Below are positions 2,153 through 10,033 of a stretch of DNA of 10,054 bases, one piece after another; the first letter of the stretch is position 1, and the number at the start of each line of letters is the position of its first letter. Position numbers and translations under genes: made by a program. The notes beneath the pieces were generated by a model that searched no databases, was not told the origin of the DNA, and saw nothing but the letters and a program-made list of their open reading frames with translations. The stretch lies in assembly GCA_014189685.1 (NCBI GenBank), contig DVAB01000041.1, forward strand, positions 1 to 10,054. Reading direction: 5' to 3'. Origin of the DNA: Candidatus Naiadarchaeum limnaeum. GTDB taxonomy: Archaea; Undinarchaeota; Undinarchaeia; Undinarchaeales; Naiadarchaeaceae.

Positions 2153-5100
2153 ATGTCCCCTAAAGGCTATAGCAAAATTGTGTTCGCAAGTTTTATTGCA
2201 ATATTTCTAACTCTGAGTATTGCTGCTCTCGCGCAATTCGCTGATTATCCTCCAGGCGCTGTTTTGCCAGGAGGAGGAGTTGCGCCACCCCCGCCTTCTT
2301 ATGTAGAACCAACTTCACAGCCAGGGCCCATTTATGTATCTCCAACAGGATTCATTACAGGAGGAGGGCCAACTGGATTTCAAATAGCATCTCAGCCAGT
2401 TACACAACAGCTGGGGACTTGTGCAAAATTACCCTTTTCAACACTTTGTTCACAAACACAGGCCGTTGACTTCGGGCAAGAATATACGGTTTCAAAAATA
2501 AAATTTGAGGCAAGGCCTGGCGGCTCCACTCCTCCTTGCGGTGCTACTACTGTGACATTTACAGGCTATGGTAAAGATTTAATTTTTCCAACTATAATAC
2601 AGCCTGTTTCATCCTCTGCCCAAAATTGGGGCTCTGCTGAGATTTCTGTAAATAATCTAAAAGTGCAAAGGGTTATTGCATCAGTTACCTCTGGCTGCCA
2701 ATATTTAGATGATATAAAAGTTACACTTACTCCCTCAACTATTACAACTTTAACTCTCACTGCTGGATTAACAACTCCCAATTCTGTTCAATTAAGCTGG
2801 AATTCTTACCCAGGGGCAGTTGATTATGTCCCACAGTACAGAAGTGCAGTATTACCTATAGGGTGGGCTGATGCCCCACGTGTAATATCTACCTCTACAA
2901 CAATCTCAGGTTTAAGCTCAAACACTAATTATGAGTTCAGGGTTATCGCAATGGGAAGAATTCTTAATATTATTCCTACACAACTTGCAGAGAGCAATAT
3001 TGTAGCAAGACAAACTCTTCCATTCGTGTTTACGCTTACTGCCGGAACAGCAACAGCCACTTCTGTTCCGCTAAGCTGGAATTCTATTTCAGGCGCAACA
3101 GAATATTTGCCGCAGTATAGAGGTGCCGGCACAACTTCCTGGAGCAATGCCCCACTTGTAACAACAACCTCAACAACAATTGGAGGTCTTGCTACCGGGA
3201 ATTCCTATGATTTTAAAGTGATAGCAATTGCAACAGTATTCGGCGTGAAAATACCATTTGCAGAAAGCAATGTTGTGCCAAAAACAGCATCGGCACCCCC
3301 GGCAGCTGACACAACCAAGCCAACAGTTTCTGTTTCTCGTAATCCTTCAGCTCCAAAAGTCGGAGACAAAGTTACACTTTCGGCAACAGCATCCGATGCG
3401 AGCGGAATAGGAGAACTTGCTATTTATTATGGAACAACTGCAACCTCTCTTATTAAACAGGTAGGCACTCCTGGGGGGTCAGCATCTGCTACAGTAACGC
3501 CGCCTACTGCTGGAACTTACTACTATCTTGCTAACGCAACAGACAAAGCCTCTCCTGTAAATATCGGCCGCGACCCTGCAACAGGAACAAAGAGCTTTAC
3601 AGTCTCAGCAGCCACACCAATAACTTATCAATTAACAGTTTCTAAATCAGGAACAGGCACAGGAACAGTTACTGCAACAGGAATTAATTGTGGAGCAGAT
3701 TGTTCTGAATCTTATAATTTTGGAACTTCAGTTACACTAACAACATCTCCTTCATCTGGCTCAACTTTTGCAGGCTGGAGCGGTGCTTGTACAGGAACTT
3801 CAACAACTTGTACTGTTACTATGAATGCTGCGAAAACAGCAACTGCAACTTTTTCAACAACTACAACAACACAATACGCTCTAACAGTTACAAAACCCGG
3901 AACAGGATCAGGAACTATAACCTCTTCTCCAACAGGAATTAGCTGTGGAACAGATTGCTCTGGAACTTATAATTCTGGAACTGTTGTTACTCTGACAGCA
4001 ACTCCTTTCTCTGGCTCAACTTTCACAGGCTGGAATTACTGTGCCAGCATCACAGAAACAAGTTGCACTGTTACAATGAATTCTATAAAAAGTGTAAATG
4101 CACATTTTGTATCACCAAGTGTTACCACCTATTCCTTAACCGTTCTTAAGGCCGGAACAGGCTCAGGAACTGTAACTTCTTCTCCTCAAGGAATTAACTG
4201 TGGAACAACTGATTGTTCTGAAAACTATAATTCAGGAACTAATGTTCTCCTTACAGCAAATCCATCAAGCGGCTCAACATTTGCAGGATGGAGCGGAGCT
4301 TGTACAGGTACTTCAACCTGCCAACTTTCTATGACTGCTGCAAAAAGTGTAACCGCAAGTTTCTCAACAACTACAACAACACAATACGCTCTAACAGTTT
4401 CTAAATCAGGAACAGGCACAGGAACAGTTACTGGAACAGGTATTAATTGTGGAAATGATTGTTCACAATCATATAATTCTGGAACTCAAGTAGAACTAAC
4501 AGCAACTTCCCTTGAAGGCTCAACATTTGGAGGCTTTTCCGGAGCAGGATGCGTCTTAGTAACAAGCCTAATAACTAGAAAATGTACAGTTTCTATGGAT
4601 GCAGCAAAAACAGTAGCCGCAAACTTTATCTCTCCTATACCATCAATTCCATCAATTGGAACTTCAACAACAGTCAACTTAGGCTCAGGCTGGAATCTAA
4701 TTTCAATCCCAGGGGACTTCTCAACAGCAACTACTACTTGCAGCGGAATAACGATCTATTTCTTTGATGCAAATACCCAACAATATTCAAATGCGAAAAC
4801 TTTTGATGGAGTAAAGGATAGTACTGCAGATAAACAAGTAGGAAAGAAAACTTCATGGTGGGCATACGCTCCAAGTGCATGCAGCATAACTTACACAGTT
4901 GCTATTTATCAATCATACAGTGGAATTCCAGTTAAACAGGGCTGGAACTTCCTTCCAATCACAAATGATATGAGCGGAAAGAAACTGGATAACATAAAAG
5001 GAAGCTGCGATATCACAGTTGCTTACAGATTTAACACAGCCTCAAATAATTGGGTTTCATTGCCGCTCACAGCAAACTTTGGCAATACAGACCGCTTTAA

Positions 5101-5203
5101 TGGAATTGTAGCTTACAGCAATAATGCCTGCACACTGGGGGGCAGCACATCAACTGGGTCCGCAGCCGGAAGCTCATCAGTTGAGCACACAGACGGAAAC
5201 TAA
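2153..5203 (+). CDS. Large secreted multidomain surface protein (FNIII, Ig-like, four InlB-B-like repeats)
   Basis: The 1016-residue product has a Sec signal peptide: Lys-containing N terminus, hydrophobic core 9-26, likely cleavage after IAALA (28). A Pro/Gly-rich linker (30-75) follows, then a cysteine-containing beta-rich domain of unknown type (85-196), two fibronectin-III-like domains (197-288 and 290-378; LSWNS, NYEFRVIA, SYDFKVIA), and an Ig-like domain (384-486). Four tandem repeats (492-568, 575-652, 660-738, 745-826) match the divergent InlB B-repeat pattern: LTVSKSGTGTGTV, INCGxDCSxSYNxGT, STFAGWSGAC, TVTMxAAKxVxAxF. Each carries four cysteines, probably two disulfides. The end has two Gly-Trp modules (845-918, GSGWNLISIP; 926-995, KQGWNFLPIT) like those closing the protease at the left edge. 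A Ser/Gly-rich tail has no membrane helix, so attachment to the cell is unclear. An adhesion or structural role is inferred; no enzymatic motif is seen. Confidence 0.85.
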   Translation: MSPKGYSKIVFASFIAIFLTLSIAALAQFADYPPGAVLPGGGVAPPPPSYVEPTSQPGPIYVSPTGFITGGGPTGFQIASQPVTQQLGTCAKLPFSTLCSQTQAVDFGQEYTVSKIKFEARPGGSTPPCGATTVTFTGYGKDLIFPTIIQPVSSSAQNWGSAEISVNNLKVQRVIASVTSGCQYLDDIKVTLTPSTITTLTLTAGLTTPNSVQLSWNSYPGAVDYVPQYRSAVLPIGWADAPRVISTSTTISGLSSNTNYEFRVIAMGRILNIIPTQLAESNIVARQTLPFVFTLTAGTATATSVPLSWNSISGATEYLPQYRGAGTTSWSNAPLVTTTSTTIGGLATGNSYDFKVIAIATVFGVKIPFAESNVVPKTASAPPAADTTKPTVSVSRNPSAPKVGDKVTLSATASDASGIGELAIYYGTTATSLIKQVGTPGGSASATVTPPTAGTYYYLANATDKASPVNIGRDPATGTKSFTVSAATPITYQLTVSKSGTGTGTVTATGINCGADCSESYNFGTSVTLTTSPSSGSTFAGWSGACTGTSTTCTVTMNAAKTATATFSTTTTTQYALTVTKPGTGSGTITSSPTGISCGTDCSGTYNSGTVVTLTATPFSGSTFTGWNYCASITETSCTVTMNSIKSVNAHFVSPSVTTYSLTVLKAGTGSGTVTSSPQGINCGTTDCSENYNSGTNVLLTANPSSGSTFAGWSGACTGTSTCQLSMTAAKSVTASFSTTTTTQYALTVSKSGTGTGTVTGTGINCGNDCSQSYNSGTQVELTATSLEGSTFGGFSGAGCVLVTSLITRKCTVSMDAAKTVAANFISPIPSIPSIGTSTTVNLGSGWNLISIPGDFSTATTTCSGITIYFFDANTQQYSNAKTFDGVKDSTADKQVGKKTSWWAYAPSACSITYTVAIYQSYSGIPVKQGWNFLPITNDMSGKKLDNIKGSCDITVAYRFNTASNNWVSLPLTANFGNTDRFNGIVAYSNNACTLGGSTSTGSAAGSSSVEHTDGN
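3626..4630 (+). repeat. Four tandem about 83-85-codon repeats inside the surface-protein gene
   Basis: The copies lie at about 3626-3856, 3875-4108, 4130-4366 and 4385-4630, with register 83, 85 and 85 codons. Cysteines fall at protein positions 513/517/546/553, 598/602/630/638, 683/688/717/723 and 766/770/800/811. Thr-rich linkers separate copies 1/2 and 3/4. Two exact nucleotide repeats stand out: 3854-3889 equals 4364-4399 (36 nt), and 3633-3674 equals 4392-4433 (42 nt). The start of copy 4 is therefore a mosaic of the linker before copy 2 and the start of copy 1. Confidence 0.85.
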
Positions 5204-5460: not shown

Positions 5461-5575
5461 GGGACTGTAGCTCAGCCCGGGAGAGCGCCAGGCTGAAGTC
5501 TTAGGTATTTTGACTCTGCAAAGAGAATGAAAGGCAGATACCTGGGTGTCGCCAGTTCAAATCTGGCCAGTCCCA
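5461..5575 (+). tRNA. tRNA-Phe (anticodon GAA) with a 41-nt intron
   Basis: The acceptor GGGACTG (5461-5467) pairs perfectly with CAGTCCC (5568-5574), with discriminator A5575. D stem GCTC/GAGC is at 5470-5473 and 5483-5486. Anticodon stem CCAGG (5488-5492) pairs with CCTGG (5541-5545) once the intron is removed. T arm GCCAG/CTGGC encloses TTCAAAT. The joined anticodon loop reads CTGAAGA, with anticodon GAA at 5495-5497. The body GTAGCTCAGCCCGGGAGAGC is typical of archaeal tRNA-Phe. The mature RNA is 74 nt and no CCA is encoded. The 3' end is duplicated exactly at 5666-5688. Both subunits of the enzyme that charges this tRNA are encoded in the same window. Confidence 0.95.
5499..5539 (+). other. 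tRNA-Phe intron at canonical position 37/38
   Basis: The bulge-helix-bulge substrate for archaeal tRNA splicing endonuclease can be drawn. The outer helix is the anticodon stem. The 3' bulge ATA (5538-5540) is cut after its second base. The central helix pairs CTGA (5493-5496) with GCAG (5534-5537), three pairs plus an A-G mismatch. The 5' bulge AGT (5497-5499) is also cut after its second base, and the inner helix pairs CTT (5500-5502) with AAG (5531-5533). Inside the intron, CTCT/AGAG (5514-5517 and 5522-5525) closes a GCAA tetraloop. At 41 nt the intron is too short to encode a homing endonuclease. Confidence 0.88.
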
Positions 5576-5588: not shown

Positions 5589-5665
5589 ATAATTGGTGCT
5601 AAACTAACACCTGGCACTGGAGGTATCGGAACCGGCACAAATTTCACAACAGGTTCTGATGTGGG
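5583..5665 (+). mobile_element. Possible remnant of an integrated element between the tRNA-Phe 3' end and its copy
   Basis: Only 83 bp separate the two 23-nt repeats, far too short for an integrase or any autonomous element. The segment is richer in G and C than the surrounding spacers. In the frame starting at 5592 it reads like an extracellular protein fragment (TPGTGGIGTGTNFTTGSDVG), without a start codon. It may be the decayed interior of an element that once integrated at tRNA-Phe, or foreign DNA caught with a partial tRNA duplication. The mobile-element interpretation rests only on the flanking repeats. Confidence 0.35.
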
Positions 5666-5688
5666 AATCTGGCCAGTCCCATTCTTTT
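5666..5688 (+). repeat. Direct repeat, copy 2: partial tRNA-Phe 3' end (putative distal att site)
   Basis: It is an exact 23-nt copy of 5560-5582. It contains CTGGC and CAGTCCC of the T arm and acceptor plus the discriminator A, but no matching 5' tRNA half precedes it, so it is not a tRNA gene. It ends in a T-run and lies just before the TATA element of the MinD-like gene. Confidence 0.85.
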
Positions 5689-5698
5689 TTCTAACAAA

Positions 5699-6841: not shown

Positions 6842-8530
6842 TTACTTTAATTTCTCTATATTCAATTCAAACAAAACCACAGGATAATCTATCTTAAAAT
6901 TATTTAAAACCTCTGGATGAATTTCTCCAATAACTCCGATTATTTTTCCACCAACTAAAATTTGCGCAGCTCTGCCACCTATAAATGTTTCATCATCAAT
7001 TTCATTTAATTCAAAATTCGTAAAGGAACTTTGTTCCTTTACGCGCACGGAAGCAAGGCTTCCGTGCTGTTTTCCAAAATTTCTGAAAAATGTTTCCAGA
7101 TTGCTTTTCATTTCTGTAAATCCAATTTTTGAATCAGAAATTCCGGCGCAGAGTTTTAAAACATTTATTGCTCCGGTCTCAGCATTTTTATCAACTTTTA
7201 CTGTTTGCCCCAATTCAAAGATTTTCTGCGGGAATTCATTTGATTGATTTTGTGCAAAAACATTCAATAAACTTGGAATCAAGCTCAATCTTGCCATTGT
7301 GTAATCAACTGTTTTCGGGTTTAAAATTTCAACATGCTCAACCCGTTCCTTTTTAATTTTCTCAAATTCATTTAGTTCATTTGAAAGAATAAAAGTTACA
7401 ACTTCCTGAAATCCAAGTCCAAGCGTGATTTCTCTTATCCTATTTGAATATTCTTCTTTCTCTAATGGATTTGCAATTGTTGCAATTTTTGGCACATGCG
7501 GTTCAAATTTCTCATACCCATGCCCAATTGCGATATCCTCAACTAAATCAATTGGGTGCATGATATCAGTTCTGTAAGCAGGAATTAAAACATCATTCCC
7601 AAGCATTCCAAACCGCATTTTTTCTAAAATTTCTTTCGCTTCTTTTGGCTTCAAATCCAAATCAAGCAGTTCATTTGTGTAATTCAAATCAAGTTTCATT
7701 CTCCTTGCCCGCAAATCCGGAGCGTGAATAACTTTTTTTGTCGGGTAAAATGTTTTCACCTCAAAAATTCTTGCGCCCCTATCTGCAAGAGCTGTTGTAA
7801 CAATATTTAGGATTTCCATAACAGCCTTCCACTCTGTTCCTGTAACTTCAATAAAAATATTTCTTGTTTTTGAAGTTATTTTTGCAAATTCCGCCCCAGT
7901 GAGCGGAACAATTCCCATTATTCTTTTTTTCGCATCAATGTAAACAGGATATTCAATCCAATTCTCAAGCATCTCTCCAAAATCCTTCCCTTTTGGATGC
8001 TTATTTTTTATTTCTTCCAGACTTATCTGCTCAGTGAATCCGAGGGGAACAAATTTTGTGCTTTTTGGAGCAACAGTGTAATTAATTGGAAACCTTAGCT
8101 CATCCAAATCATAAGTCCCGAGTCCAACTTTTTTTCTCTTTCTCCCAATTGTTGTTGCAAGTTTGTCCTGCAATTGCATAAAAGCCGCGATTGACTCATC
8201 TGTAAATTTCAAATCCTTTGCAACTGCAAAAGCAGCGCATCCTCTTAATCCAATTAAACGCTTATCCACACTTACAGAAAAATTGCTTTTTTTCACTTCA
8301 AATTGTGGAAGCCCTGTTTTAATTCCCAAAAATCCCTGCGCCGCGCGCGCAAATCCTTCTACACTTAATAAATCAGACCTGTTTGGGAAAACTTCAAAAT
8401 CAACTTCCTCTTCTGTAATTCTTTCAAGAGGCACCCCGAGCATAACTAATCGGTCAGTATAATCACTATCAGAAAGTTTTTTTCCAATTAATTTTTCCAA
8501 ATCTTTGCGGTTGAAAGTTACGAGGGCCAT
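6842..8530 (-). CDS. pheT: Phenylalanyl-tRNA synthetase beta subunit, archaeal type
   Basis: With PheS it forms the alpha2-beta2 cytoplasmic enzyme that attaches phenylalanine to tRNA-Phe; the beta subunit contributes structure, tRNA contacts and editing. At 562 residues it has the archaeal/eukaryotic length and lacks the N-terminal EMAP-type tRNA-binding domain and C-terminal extension of the roughly 800-residue bacterial form. Order: N-terminal domain (FNRKDLEKLIG, VDFEVFPNRSDLLSVEGFAR, 43-62), B3/4 editing domain (about 90-250), B5 domain (about 268-345, RTDIMHPIDLVEDIAIGHGY), then a degenerate class II core (350-562) ending GEIHPEVLNNF. Residues 489-504, in a variable part before FIGGRAAQILVGGKIIGVIGEIHPE, are encoded by two adjacent palindromes and look inserted. 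The ATG abuts the pheS stop codon, with GAGGTG upstream inside pheS, so translation is coupled. The 3' end abuts the convergent 111-codon gene. Confidence 0.96.
   Translation of the reverse strand: MALVTFNRKDLEKLIGKKLSDSDYTDRLVMLGVPLERITEEEVDFEVFPNRSDLLSVEGFARAAQGFLGIKTGLPQFEVKKSNFSVSVDKRLIGLRGCAAFAVAKDLKFTDESIAAFMQLQDKLATTIGRKRKKVGLGTYDLDELRFPINYTVAPKSTKFVPLGFTEQISLEEIKNKHPKGKDFGEMLENWIEYPVYIDAKKRIMGIVPLTGAEFAKITSKTRNIFIEVTGTEWKAVMEILNIVTTALADRGARIFEVKTFYPTKKVIHAPDLRARRMKLDLNYTNELLDLDLKPKEAKEILEKMRFGMLGNDVLIPAYRTDIMHPIDLVEDIAIGHGYEKFEPHVPKIATIANPLEKEEYSNRIREITLGLGFQEVVTFILSNELNEFEKIKKERVEHVEILNPKTVDYTMARLSLIPSLLNVFAQNQSNEFPQKIFELGQTVKVDKNAETGAINVLKLCAGISDSKIGFTEMKSNLETFFRNFGKQHGSLASVRVKEQSSFTNFELNEIDDETFIGGRAAQILVGGKIIGVIGEIHPEVLNNFKIDYPVVLFELNIEKLK
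7019..7043 (-). repeat. Perfect inverted repeat in pheT, 11-bp arms with 3-nt loop
   Basis: On the + strand the arms are CGTAAAGGAAC (7019-7029) and GTTCCTTTACG (7033-7043), around TTT. In pheT mRNA this forms an 11-bp hairpin with loop AAA. It encodes roughly VKEQSSFT (residues 497-504). One base (7044) separates it from the next palindrome. Confidence 0.92.
7045..7067 (-). repeat. Perfect inverted repeat in pheT, 10-bp arms with 3-nt loop
   Basis: On the + strand the arms are GCACGGAAGC (7045-7054) and GCTTCCGTGC (7058-7067), around AAG. The mRNA hairpin has loop CUU and is GC-rich against an AT-rich gene. It encodes HGSLASV plus part of R496 (residues 489-496). Both palindromes share a GGAA core in the left arm, so they may be diverged copies of one element. 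Confidence 0.92.
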
Positions 8531-10012
8531 TTAAAAAATTCCCACCTCTCTTAACCATTTCAAATTATTGAAATAGTAGAAACTCCTAATATCCTTTAAC
8601 CCCAGTTTTAGCATAATCGGCCTTTCCAAACTCAAACCCCATGCTAAAACAGGAACATCTATCCCCAACGGCTCTGTAACCTCTGGCCTGAAAATTCCTG
8701 AGCCGCCCATTTCAAGCCATTCTCCTCTTTCCTCCAAATAAACCTCAGGCTCTGTGCTCATCTCTGTATATGGGAAATAAGCAGGCCTAAAGCGGATTTT
8801 TTCAAACCCAAGCCTGTAGAAAAATTCTTTTAAATATCCGAGCAAGTCCTTGAAAGTTACATTTTCATCAGCAACAATTCCATCTATCTGAGTGAATTCT
8901 GGCAAATGCTTAAAATCTAAAGTTTCATTTCTGAAAGTTCTCCCAATGCAAAAAACTTTTGCAGGCGGCTTTATTCTTGATAAAGCACGAACAGTGACAG
9001 CTGTTGTATGCGTGCGCAGAATTGATTTTTTTGCCAGTTCCTCATTCCACTTATACCTCCATCCAGTTGAATCCTTTGTTCCCTGCTCATGCGCTTTTTT
9101 TACCTCATCCAAAATTTTTCTGGCCGGCAATTTTGCTTCGGACGGGTTTTTCAGATAAAATGTATCCTGCAAATCCCTTGATGGGTGGTCCTGCGGCTGG
9201 AAAAGCGCATCAAAATTCCAAAATGAACTTTCAATTAAAGGTCCTTCAACTTCTTCAAATCCCAAATCTAAAAAAATTCTTCTGATTTTATTGCGCGCAA
9301 TTGTTAGAGGATGCAATTTCCCTCCATAAAAAGCAGGAACAGGCGCTTTCAAATCATAGCCGCGCAACTTTTTTTCCTTCCAAGCTCCTGTTTTTATCAT
9401 CTCATGCGTTAACTGATGGACTACATCTCCTGTTTCTGTTGCCTCTATTTTAGCGCCCTCTTTAAGCTCCATTTTATATTCATAGTGGCTTCCAACCTCT
9501 ACAACTCCGCGCTTTTTTAAAGGTTCAACAATTTCCCCTTGCACGAATCCGCCTGTGTTAATTTCTTCCAACGCATTTTCCAAATCGCTTTTTTCTTTTG
9601 ATTCAAGCTTTCCGATTTCTGTTAATTCAAGTTCAATTCCCAAATCTCCTTTTCTAATAACTGCCCAGCCATTCTTTTTTAAAATTCCAAAACAAGCTTC
9701 AATCTCTTGCTGGCTTAATCCTGTTGTTTCAATCAGTTCATTCAAAGTCTGCGGCCCACTTTTTAAAACAGAGGCAATTTTTTTCTCAGGCAGTCCTTCT
9801 TTCAAATATTTTTTTCCAAACTCAGTTAATTTCGGTTTTTCAGTAACTTTTTTCTCAAGAACAACTAAGCCCTTCTGGCTTAGAGAGTATCCAAATCTTT
9901 CAGCCTGGATTTTTTCAATTCCTGCCGTCTCTGCAACAACGCTTGCAGAACCTTTTCCGCCGAGCTTTTTCAGGCCTTCGATTACTTTGATTTCTAAAGG
10001 ATGGAGATCCAT
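8531..10012 (-). CDS. pheS: Phenylalanyl-tRNA synthetase alpha subunit, archaeal type
   Basis: This is the catalytic subunit of PheRS, activating phenylalanine with ATP and transferring it to tRNA-Phe. The 493 residues match archaeal PheS length. The N-terminal half (1 to about 200) holds winged-helix-like modules typical of archaeal/eukaryotic alpha subunits (LKKLGGKGSASVVAETAGI, VLKSGPQTLNELIETTGLS). The class II catalytic core (about 225-493) shows motif 1 around GFEEVEGPLIESSFWNFDALF (250-270), motif 2 as RTFRNETLDFKHLPEF (358-373) and motif 3 as GLSLERPIMLKLGLKDIR (459-476). The frame extends six codons upstream to a TTG at 10030, but the ATG at 10012 is preferred: it begins MDLHP as in relatives and sits about 28 nt from the TATA-like element, giving a leaderless transcript. 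It heads the pheS-pheT operon, with a 0-nt gap to pheT. Confidence 0.96.
   Translation of the reverse strand: MDLHPLEIKVIEGLKKLGGKGSASVVAETAGIEKIQAERFGYSLSQKGLVVLEKKVTEKPKLTEFGKKYLKEGLPEKKIASVLKSGPQTLNELIETTGLSQQEIEACFGILKKNGWAVIRKGDLGIELELTEIGKLESKEKSDLENALEEINTGGFVQGEIVEPLKKRGVVEVGSHYEYKMELKEGAKIEATETGDVVHQLTHEMIKTGAWKEKKLRGYDLKAPVPAFYGGKLHPLTIARNKIRRIFLDLGFEEVEGPLIESSFWNFDALFQPQDHPSRDLQDTFYLKNPSEAKLPARKILDEVKKAHEQGTKDSTGWRYKWNEELAKKSILRTHTTAVTVRALSRIKPPAKVFCIGRTFRNETLDFKHLPEFTQIDGIVADENVTFKDLLGYLKEFFYRLGFEKIRFRPAYFPYTEMSTEPEVYLEERGEWLEMGGSGIFRPEVTEPLGIDVPVLAWGLSLERPIMLKLGLKDIRSFYYFNNLKWLREVGIF
8543..8548 (-). promoter_or_regulatory. Ribosome-binding site for pheT inside the end of pheS
   Basis: On the minus strand GAGGTG lies 12 nt before the pheT ATG, within the last codons of pheS. 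It matches the complement of the archaeal 16S rRNA 3' end (anti-SD CACCTC). The spacing is a little long. It is the only clear Shine-Dalgarno sequence in the window, and it serves an operon-internal gene. Confidence 0.55.
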
Positions 10013-10033
10013 AGTTGCATAAACTAGCAAAGG

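Follow-up and report, generated by a model that had tools for sequence, protein, structure and literature searches.

A twin-hairpin palindromic DNA element dispersed in the genome of Candidatus Naiadarchaeum limnaeum and inserted in frame in pheT

The pheT locus and its twin hairpins

The stretch of DNA analysed here (the window, 10,054 nucleotides) is one entire 10-kb contig of the Candidatus Naiadarchaeum limnaeum genome, an assembly of 984 kb in 52 contigs that is 98% complete. Its minus strand carries pheS (8531-10030) and, following it, pheT (6842-8530), which codes for the beta subunit of phenylalanyl-tRNA synthetase (562 amino acids, with the PheRS beta CLM and B5 domains of Pfam) and is the gene interrupted by the element described below. 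The window also encodes a large, apparently secreted protein (2153-5203) that contains fibronectin-like stretches and four repeats of about 75 amino acids of the type LTVSKSGTGTGTVTxxGINCGxDCS. At 5461-5575 and 5660-5690 lies a tRNA gene missed by ARAGORN, apparently tRNA-Phe (GAA), with an intron of about 40 nt immediately after the anticodon; the last part of the gene, at its 3' end (aatctggccagtcccattctttt), occurs again some 100 bp further downstream, resembling the remnant of an attachment site.

Positions 7019-7067, inside pheT, are occupied by a 25-nt palindrome, a single C and a 23-nt palindrome, both exact. Hairpin 1 (7019-7043, read on the plus strand) is composed of 11-bp arms, CGTAAAGGAAC (7019-7029) and GTTCCTTTACG (7033-7043), around a TTT loop, and hairpin 2 (7045-7067, plus strand) of 10-bp arms, GCACGGAAGC (7045-7054) and GCTTCCGTGC (7058-7067), around an AAG loop; pairing is perfect in both, and both are included in the family alignment A2. 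The spacer C between them (7044, plus strand) is kept in nearly all copies of the element found in this genome. Hairpin 2 is followed by TGTT (7068-7071, plus strand), which matches the TGTC tail present at this place in most copies; GT is invariant in 13/13 aligned copies, and GTAG is absent. The original prediction had placed two exact palindromes here, one base apart, and its coordinates and arm and loop sizes all match; it was also correct in assigning a GGAA core to both hairpins, a core now seen to be conserved in the whole family.

Together with two further bases, the doublet encodes an in-frame insertion of 51 nt (7018-7069, minus strand, with outer limits uncertain by 1-3 nt). In the protein, this corresponds to exactly 17 extra residues (KQHGSLASVRVKEQSSF, approximately residues 488-504) that are absent from 20/20 aligned archaeal PheT orthologues, which are 31-55% identical to the protein and include members of the same order (50-55%). 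The earlier proposal that codons had been inserted with the frame kept is thus confirmed, and its estimate of about 16 codons (489-504) has to be corrected to 17 (488-504). Right after the insertion comes the conserved FIGGRAA strand; the alignment with the human PheRS beta chain also has gaps in this stretch, in agreement with the variable region anticipated at this position.

Copies across the genome and variation of their arms and loops

The same twin-hairpin layout (25+1+23 nt) is found, in both orientations, at about 17 places in the approximately 1-Mb genome, in line with the suggestion of a dispersed palindromic element that tolerates coding sequence. Neither of the two grounds for refutation given with the original prediction, residues shared by relatives or a lack of other copies, applies. 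A blind scan for perfect palindromes, which covered 288 kb of the genome, returned the layout six times, on both strands and with differing sequences, and the core GGAAYNNNRTTCC, searched without any long-arm requirement, yielded 18 places (mostly the same doublet) against a single one for the reversed control. R1, a covariance model built on 13 copies (alignment A2), retrieved 17 copies at E<2e-7, distributed over 16 contigs and both strands. Eleven copies pair perfectly at 21/21 positions, and only 1.5e-6 such doublets would be expected per genome at the given base composition, so that a chance origin, already judged very unlikely from the pheT locus alone, is not tenable. Six of the copies in R1 were first detected by perfect pairing and the percentage of pairing is therefore inflated, which does not affect the existence of the copies found by the core motif only. 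The 288 kb contain 15 triloop palindromes whose arms reach 9 bp or more, versus one in a Markov-2 simulation, and palindromes with loops of 4, 5 or 6 nt stay at background in the same sequence.

Outside genes, there are intergenic copies, copies immediately before start codons (C13, C32) or just past stop codons (C1, C17), and copies adjoining tRNA genes (C28, C6). Three copies are intragenic and in frame, those of pheT, of ftsY (a gene with SRP54 domains by Pfam, in which the element sits in the N-terminal linker) and of a gene for an acidic protein of unknown family, where it lies in the acidic N-terminal region. The element is read in the same frame in pheT and ftsY and in a different one in the third gene, and therefore no particular peptide is carried. 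Some copies are imperfect, being mismatched or short of one base (ftsY on C3, and those on C43, C6, C28, C45 and C51), which is what decay would be expected to give. Several intergenic copies are enclosed by an additional outer stem, which is changed on both sides between C1 and C17 (GGGGAC/GTCCCC versus GGCCAC/GTGGCC). A second type of hairpin, GGAAGC-NNN-GCTTCC or similar with an outer stem around it, was also observed in this genome (L016:3418, L021:5681, L021:10230, L022:16234 and L024:15449); it adjoins a variable-stem hairpin with a GAGYG(N)NARCGA loop, which also flanks some of the doublet copies (C50, C51, C45).

Triloop size and spacing are fixed across copies, and the constant part of the arms is limited to GGAA..TTCC in hairpin 1 and G.AA..TT.C in hairpin 2, all other arm positions differing between copies. 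These differences are symmetrical: 13 of the 21 pairs are altered on both sides (47 two-sided cells), with no one-sided changes and a single U-G pair, while controls in a slid register give only 1-7 two-sided cells. RNA stems evolve via G-U intermediates, and to judge from the aligned copies, two-sided changes with just one G-T pair are unlike this mode of evolution and are as arm-to-arm copying would give, although the comparison of G-T with A-C in this genome rests on few within-arm mismatches. The loops also vary in an ordered manner, appearing as reverse complements in a fixed context: GAA (six copies) versus TTC and AAA (three) versus TTT in hairpin 1, and TTT (six) versus AAA and TTC (two) versus GAA in hairpin 2. 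The same loop pairs, GAA/TTC and TTT/AAA, are seen in another archaeal family (that of G130, see below). Loop inversion in the present family is inferred from paralogous copies, without a dated tree, and TTT/AAA could also be reached by ordinary substitution. Homogenisation of the arms and inversion of the spacer have been reported as the signature of template switching between the arms of inverted repeats, whose products in yeast genes include 11-bp arms with 3-nt spacers (PMC8604942, PMC8794818).

Similar hairpin arrays in other archaea

Hairpin arrays of similar construction occur sporadically in other archaea and are missing from most. At a threshold of 1e-6, R1 matched only three of 394 archaeal genomes, that of Ca. 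N. limnaeum (14 copies), G130 (two) and G279 (one), the last two weakly; the twin-hairpin element was not found in the five other genomes of the same phylum that were examined, and no enrichment of the core motif was detected in five genomes of the same order. A pattern scan of the genome collection identified seven loci in one euryarchaeal MAG, CSMAG_2293 (G031), whose isolate name we take to denote a cold seep. In 216 kb, this MAG contains six hairpins with 4-nt loops but 207 triloop hairpins with arms of 8 bp or more, the latter organised in arrays of up to 15 hairpins with centres 25-27 nt apart; the loop is [G/A]NA or its complement in 189/207 (91%) and is closed by C-G in 196/207 (95%). 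One of its arrays, with four hairpins (L089:1174-1325), keeps the reading frame open at the beginning of a gene resembling a Trm5-type tRNA methyltransferase.

G130 and other members of its family, which are small-genome archaea, have an element of five hairpins whose arms are largely conserved and whose loops change. A four-hairpin block of about 106 nt, located between AGA repeats in G130 (L130:1481-1604), is missing from the congeneric G395 (L176, near 2381) within the same intergenic element, and a second G130 array is missing at the matching place in G398. The G395 locus was considered as an empty site and rejected, because the ends of the element and its last hairpin are retained there and a deletion is at least as likely. 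A generic two-hairpin model added further cases (G285, G153/G333, G172 and G179), for 7/394 genomes in all; in G153 and G333, near-identical triloop pairs, e.g., TGAAAATCT-gca-AGATTTTCA with TTACAAAATGC-aaa-GCATTTTGTAA, were observed at several loci (L215, L216, L221). Control sequence from 20 archaea (108 kb) contained the background level only. These arrays have a grammar in common with the family of the window, not a sequence, and whether this reflects common descent or mechanism alone is undecided. Pattern matches in Chitinophagales, Chryseobacterium, Haloferax, Haladaptatus, Paenibacillus and Erginobacter show poor pairing and were attributed to chance. No real copies were found in viral contigs scanned for hairpins of the own, G130 and CSMAG types (the single pattern match pairs poorly), and pheT DNA had no match in the plasmid collection.

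Nature of the element and relation to known systems

The pheT doublet belongs to a family that is multi-copy, has a fixed layout with free arm sequence, and has intergenic members as well as in-frame ones in pheT, ftsY and a third gene. An ordinary loop insertion of PheT, with palindromes arising by coincidence or from a codon-level effect, would suit the variable stretch in which it lies, but is refuted by sixteen more copies of the same layout and a chance expectation of about 1e-6. A structured RNA (cis-regulatory, processing or small RNA) selected for RNA pairing could account for the strong two-sided covariation, for the copies in 5' leaders or just 3' of genes and for the outer stems enclosing several doublets. 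Nevertheless, G-U pairs are nearly absent among the 47 two-sided changes, the loops are triloops and not tetraloops of the RNA type, copies occur in both orientations (antisense to the gene in pheT and ftsY), and there is no Rfam match, tRNAs being the sole matches at the gathering score in the window and 15 loci. Because G-T pairs are nearly absent and triloops are chosen, the hairpins seem to be kept at the DNA rather than the RNA level, and we regard an RNA element as unlikely, if still conceivable.

Two classes of mobile DNA also have to be weighed. The dispersal of the copies, their lack of coding capacity and their in-frame insertions would all be compatible with a MITE that stems from a DDE or other transposon, the hairpins forming its body and the outer stems of several copies possibly its decayed terminal inverted repeats; this seems improbable, since the copies have neither a constant terminal inverted repeat nor a target duplication in common and the outer-stem sequences differ between them. 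The short palindromes in pairs and arrays, also known from REP/BIME in prokaryotic genomes, and the short conserved TGTC tail recall a REP/BIME-type repeat that depends on a Y1 (RAYT/IS200-like) transposase for its movement, CGTC-tagged repeats with TGTC variants having been described (PMC3733652). REP/BIME elements are, however, associated with RAYT and have a GTAG/CGTC tag, the described CGTC repeats with loops of 4-5 nt (PMC3733652). Here the GTAG tag is lacking, and Y1_Tnp (PF01797), present in 5/14 control genomes, is missing both from the 98% complete Ca. N. limnaeum genome (G000) and from the hairpin-rich G031, so that this origin is very improbable.

The explanation that we favour, with a probability of roughly 0.7, is that the doublet represents a short palindromic DNA element, dispersed and non-autonomous, in which template switching between the arms maintains their perfect pairing. 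The unit, of about 51 nt, would consist of a 25-nt hairpin, the C, a 23-nt hairpin and the TGTC tail, with the extra outer stem in several intergenic copies. It is inferred to act as DNA: in a region made single-stranded by replication, repair or transfer, each unit would fold into a hairpin of one helical turn, the length of a stem of about 10 bp, with a tight triloop at its tip. If DNA polymerase then switches between the arms, one arm may be recopied from the other, which would produce symmetric arm changes and loops flipped to their reverse complement. New copies could originate by insertion or copying of the folded single-stranded DNA through an unidentified host or mobile function, and would survive where an insert of 51 nt (17 codons) is harmless, such as the PheT loop or the FtsY linker. 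C-GNA-G triloops are cited as unusually stable DNA minihairpins (Yoshizawa 1997, as quoted in PMC6479982). No mobilising enzyme was found, Y1 being the sole transposase family searched, and neither a clean target-site duplication nor an empty/full pair in close relatives is available for the family of the window, with one genome of the genus in the set. The evidence does not require that the element serve any function for the host.

It is possible, although this remains tentative, that the element represents an undescribed class of archaeal DNA repeats, modular arrays of perfect triloop palindromes that would spread via single-stranded hairpins by a dedicated, unknown machinery, have a scattered distribution among distant archaea and be able to insert in frame into essential genes. 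The grammar of this putative class would consist of C-[G/A]NA-G loops, purine-first arms of 7-12 bp and centres separated by 25-27 bp (about 2.5 helical turns). The open-access papers searched, the subscription literature being outside the scope, yielded no description of such elements, or of triloop arrays, from archaea.

By analogy, the element appears to behave like the Rickettsia palindromic elements (RPE) and the mitochondrial double-hairpin elements, but it fails the size and peptide features that define RPE and is not one of them. The likeness to RPE proposed in the original prediction stands in principle, both being palindromic repeats scattered over intergenic sites and in-frame sites of unrelated protein genes, and does not extend further: RPE measure about 150 bp and encode a conserved peptide (PMC10969869), whereas the archaeal unit has about 51 nt in two separate hairpins in fixed register, its arm sequence varies freely and, with it, the peptide, and no peptide frame is conserved. 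This judgement is based on length and arm conservation, without alignment to any RPE sequence. The mitochondrial double-hairpin and repetitive hairpin-forming elements of fungi and sponges (RHE in the latter) also consist of adjacent hairpins in fixed order, dispersed and without a known enzyme, although the likeness is structural and not based on sequence comparison. The double-hairpin elements are mitochondrial and mostly intergenic (PMC2800124), unlike the in-frame copies of this archaeal chromosome, and the RHE of sponges have conserved stems and variable loops, whereas in the archaeal element the outer arms vary symmetrically round a fixed GGAA..TTCC core. The organelle palindromes of Volvox and Lobosphaera (short palindromic repeats, LIMP) are likewise numerous short hairpins with short loops, in both orientations, and show complementary stem changes (PMC2670323, PMC4524435), but are intergenic or intronic, with variable stem lengths and fixed TAAA/TTTA or 7-nt loops, and a constant spacing of 25-27 nt has not been reported for them. 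In the mitochondria of Nematomorpha, perfect palindromes also lie inside functional protein genes (PMC6649704), yet their long arms encode conserved protein segments and the archaeal element is a short insert adding extra residues.

It is mainly in Rickettsia and mitochondria that palindromic repeats are known to invade protein genes. The present element would be a compact archaeal version, in which a strict geometry combined with freely varying yet perfectly complementary arms offers a natural test system. It cautions against inferring a functional RNA from covariation alone, and makes it possible to ask how palindromic repeats without an enzyme spread, and whether genomic hairpins may be kept perfect by template switching between their arms rather than by selection. 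It also points to a route by which essential proteins may acquire ready-made loop insertions.
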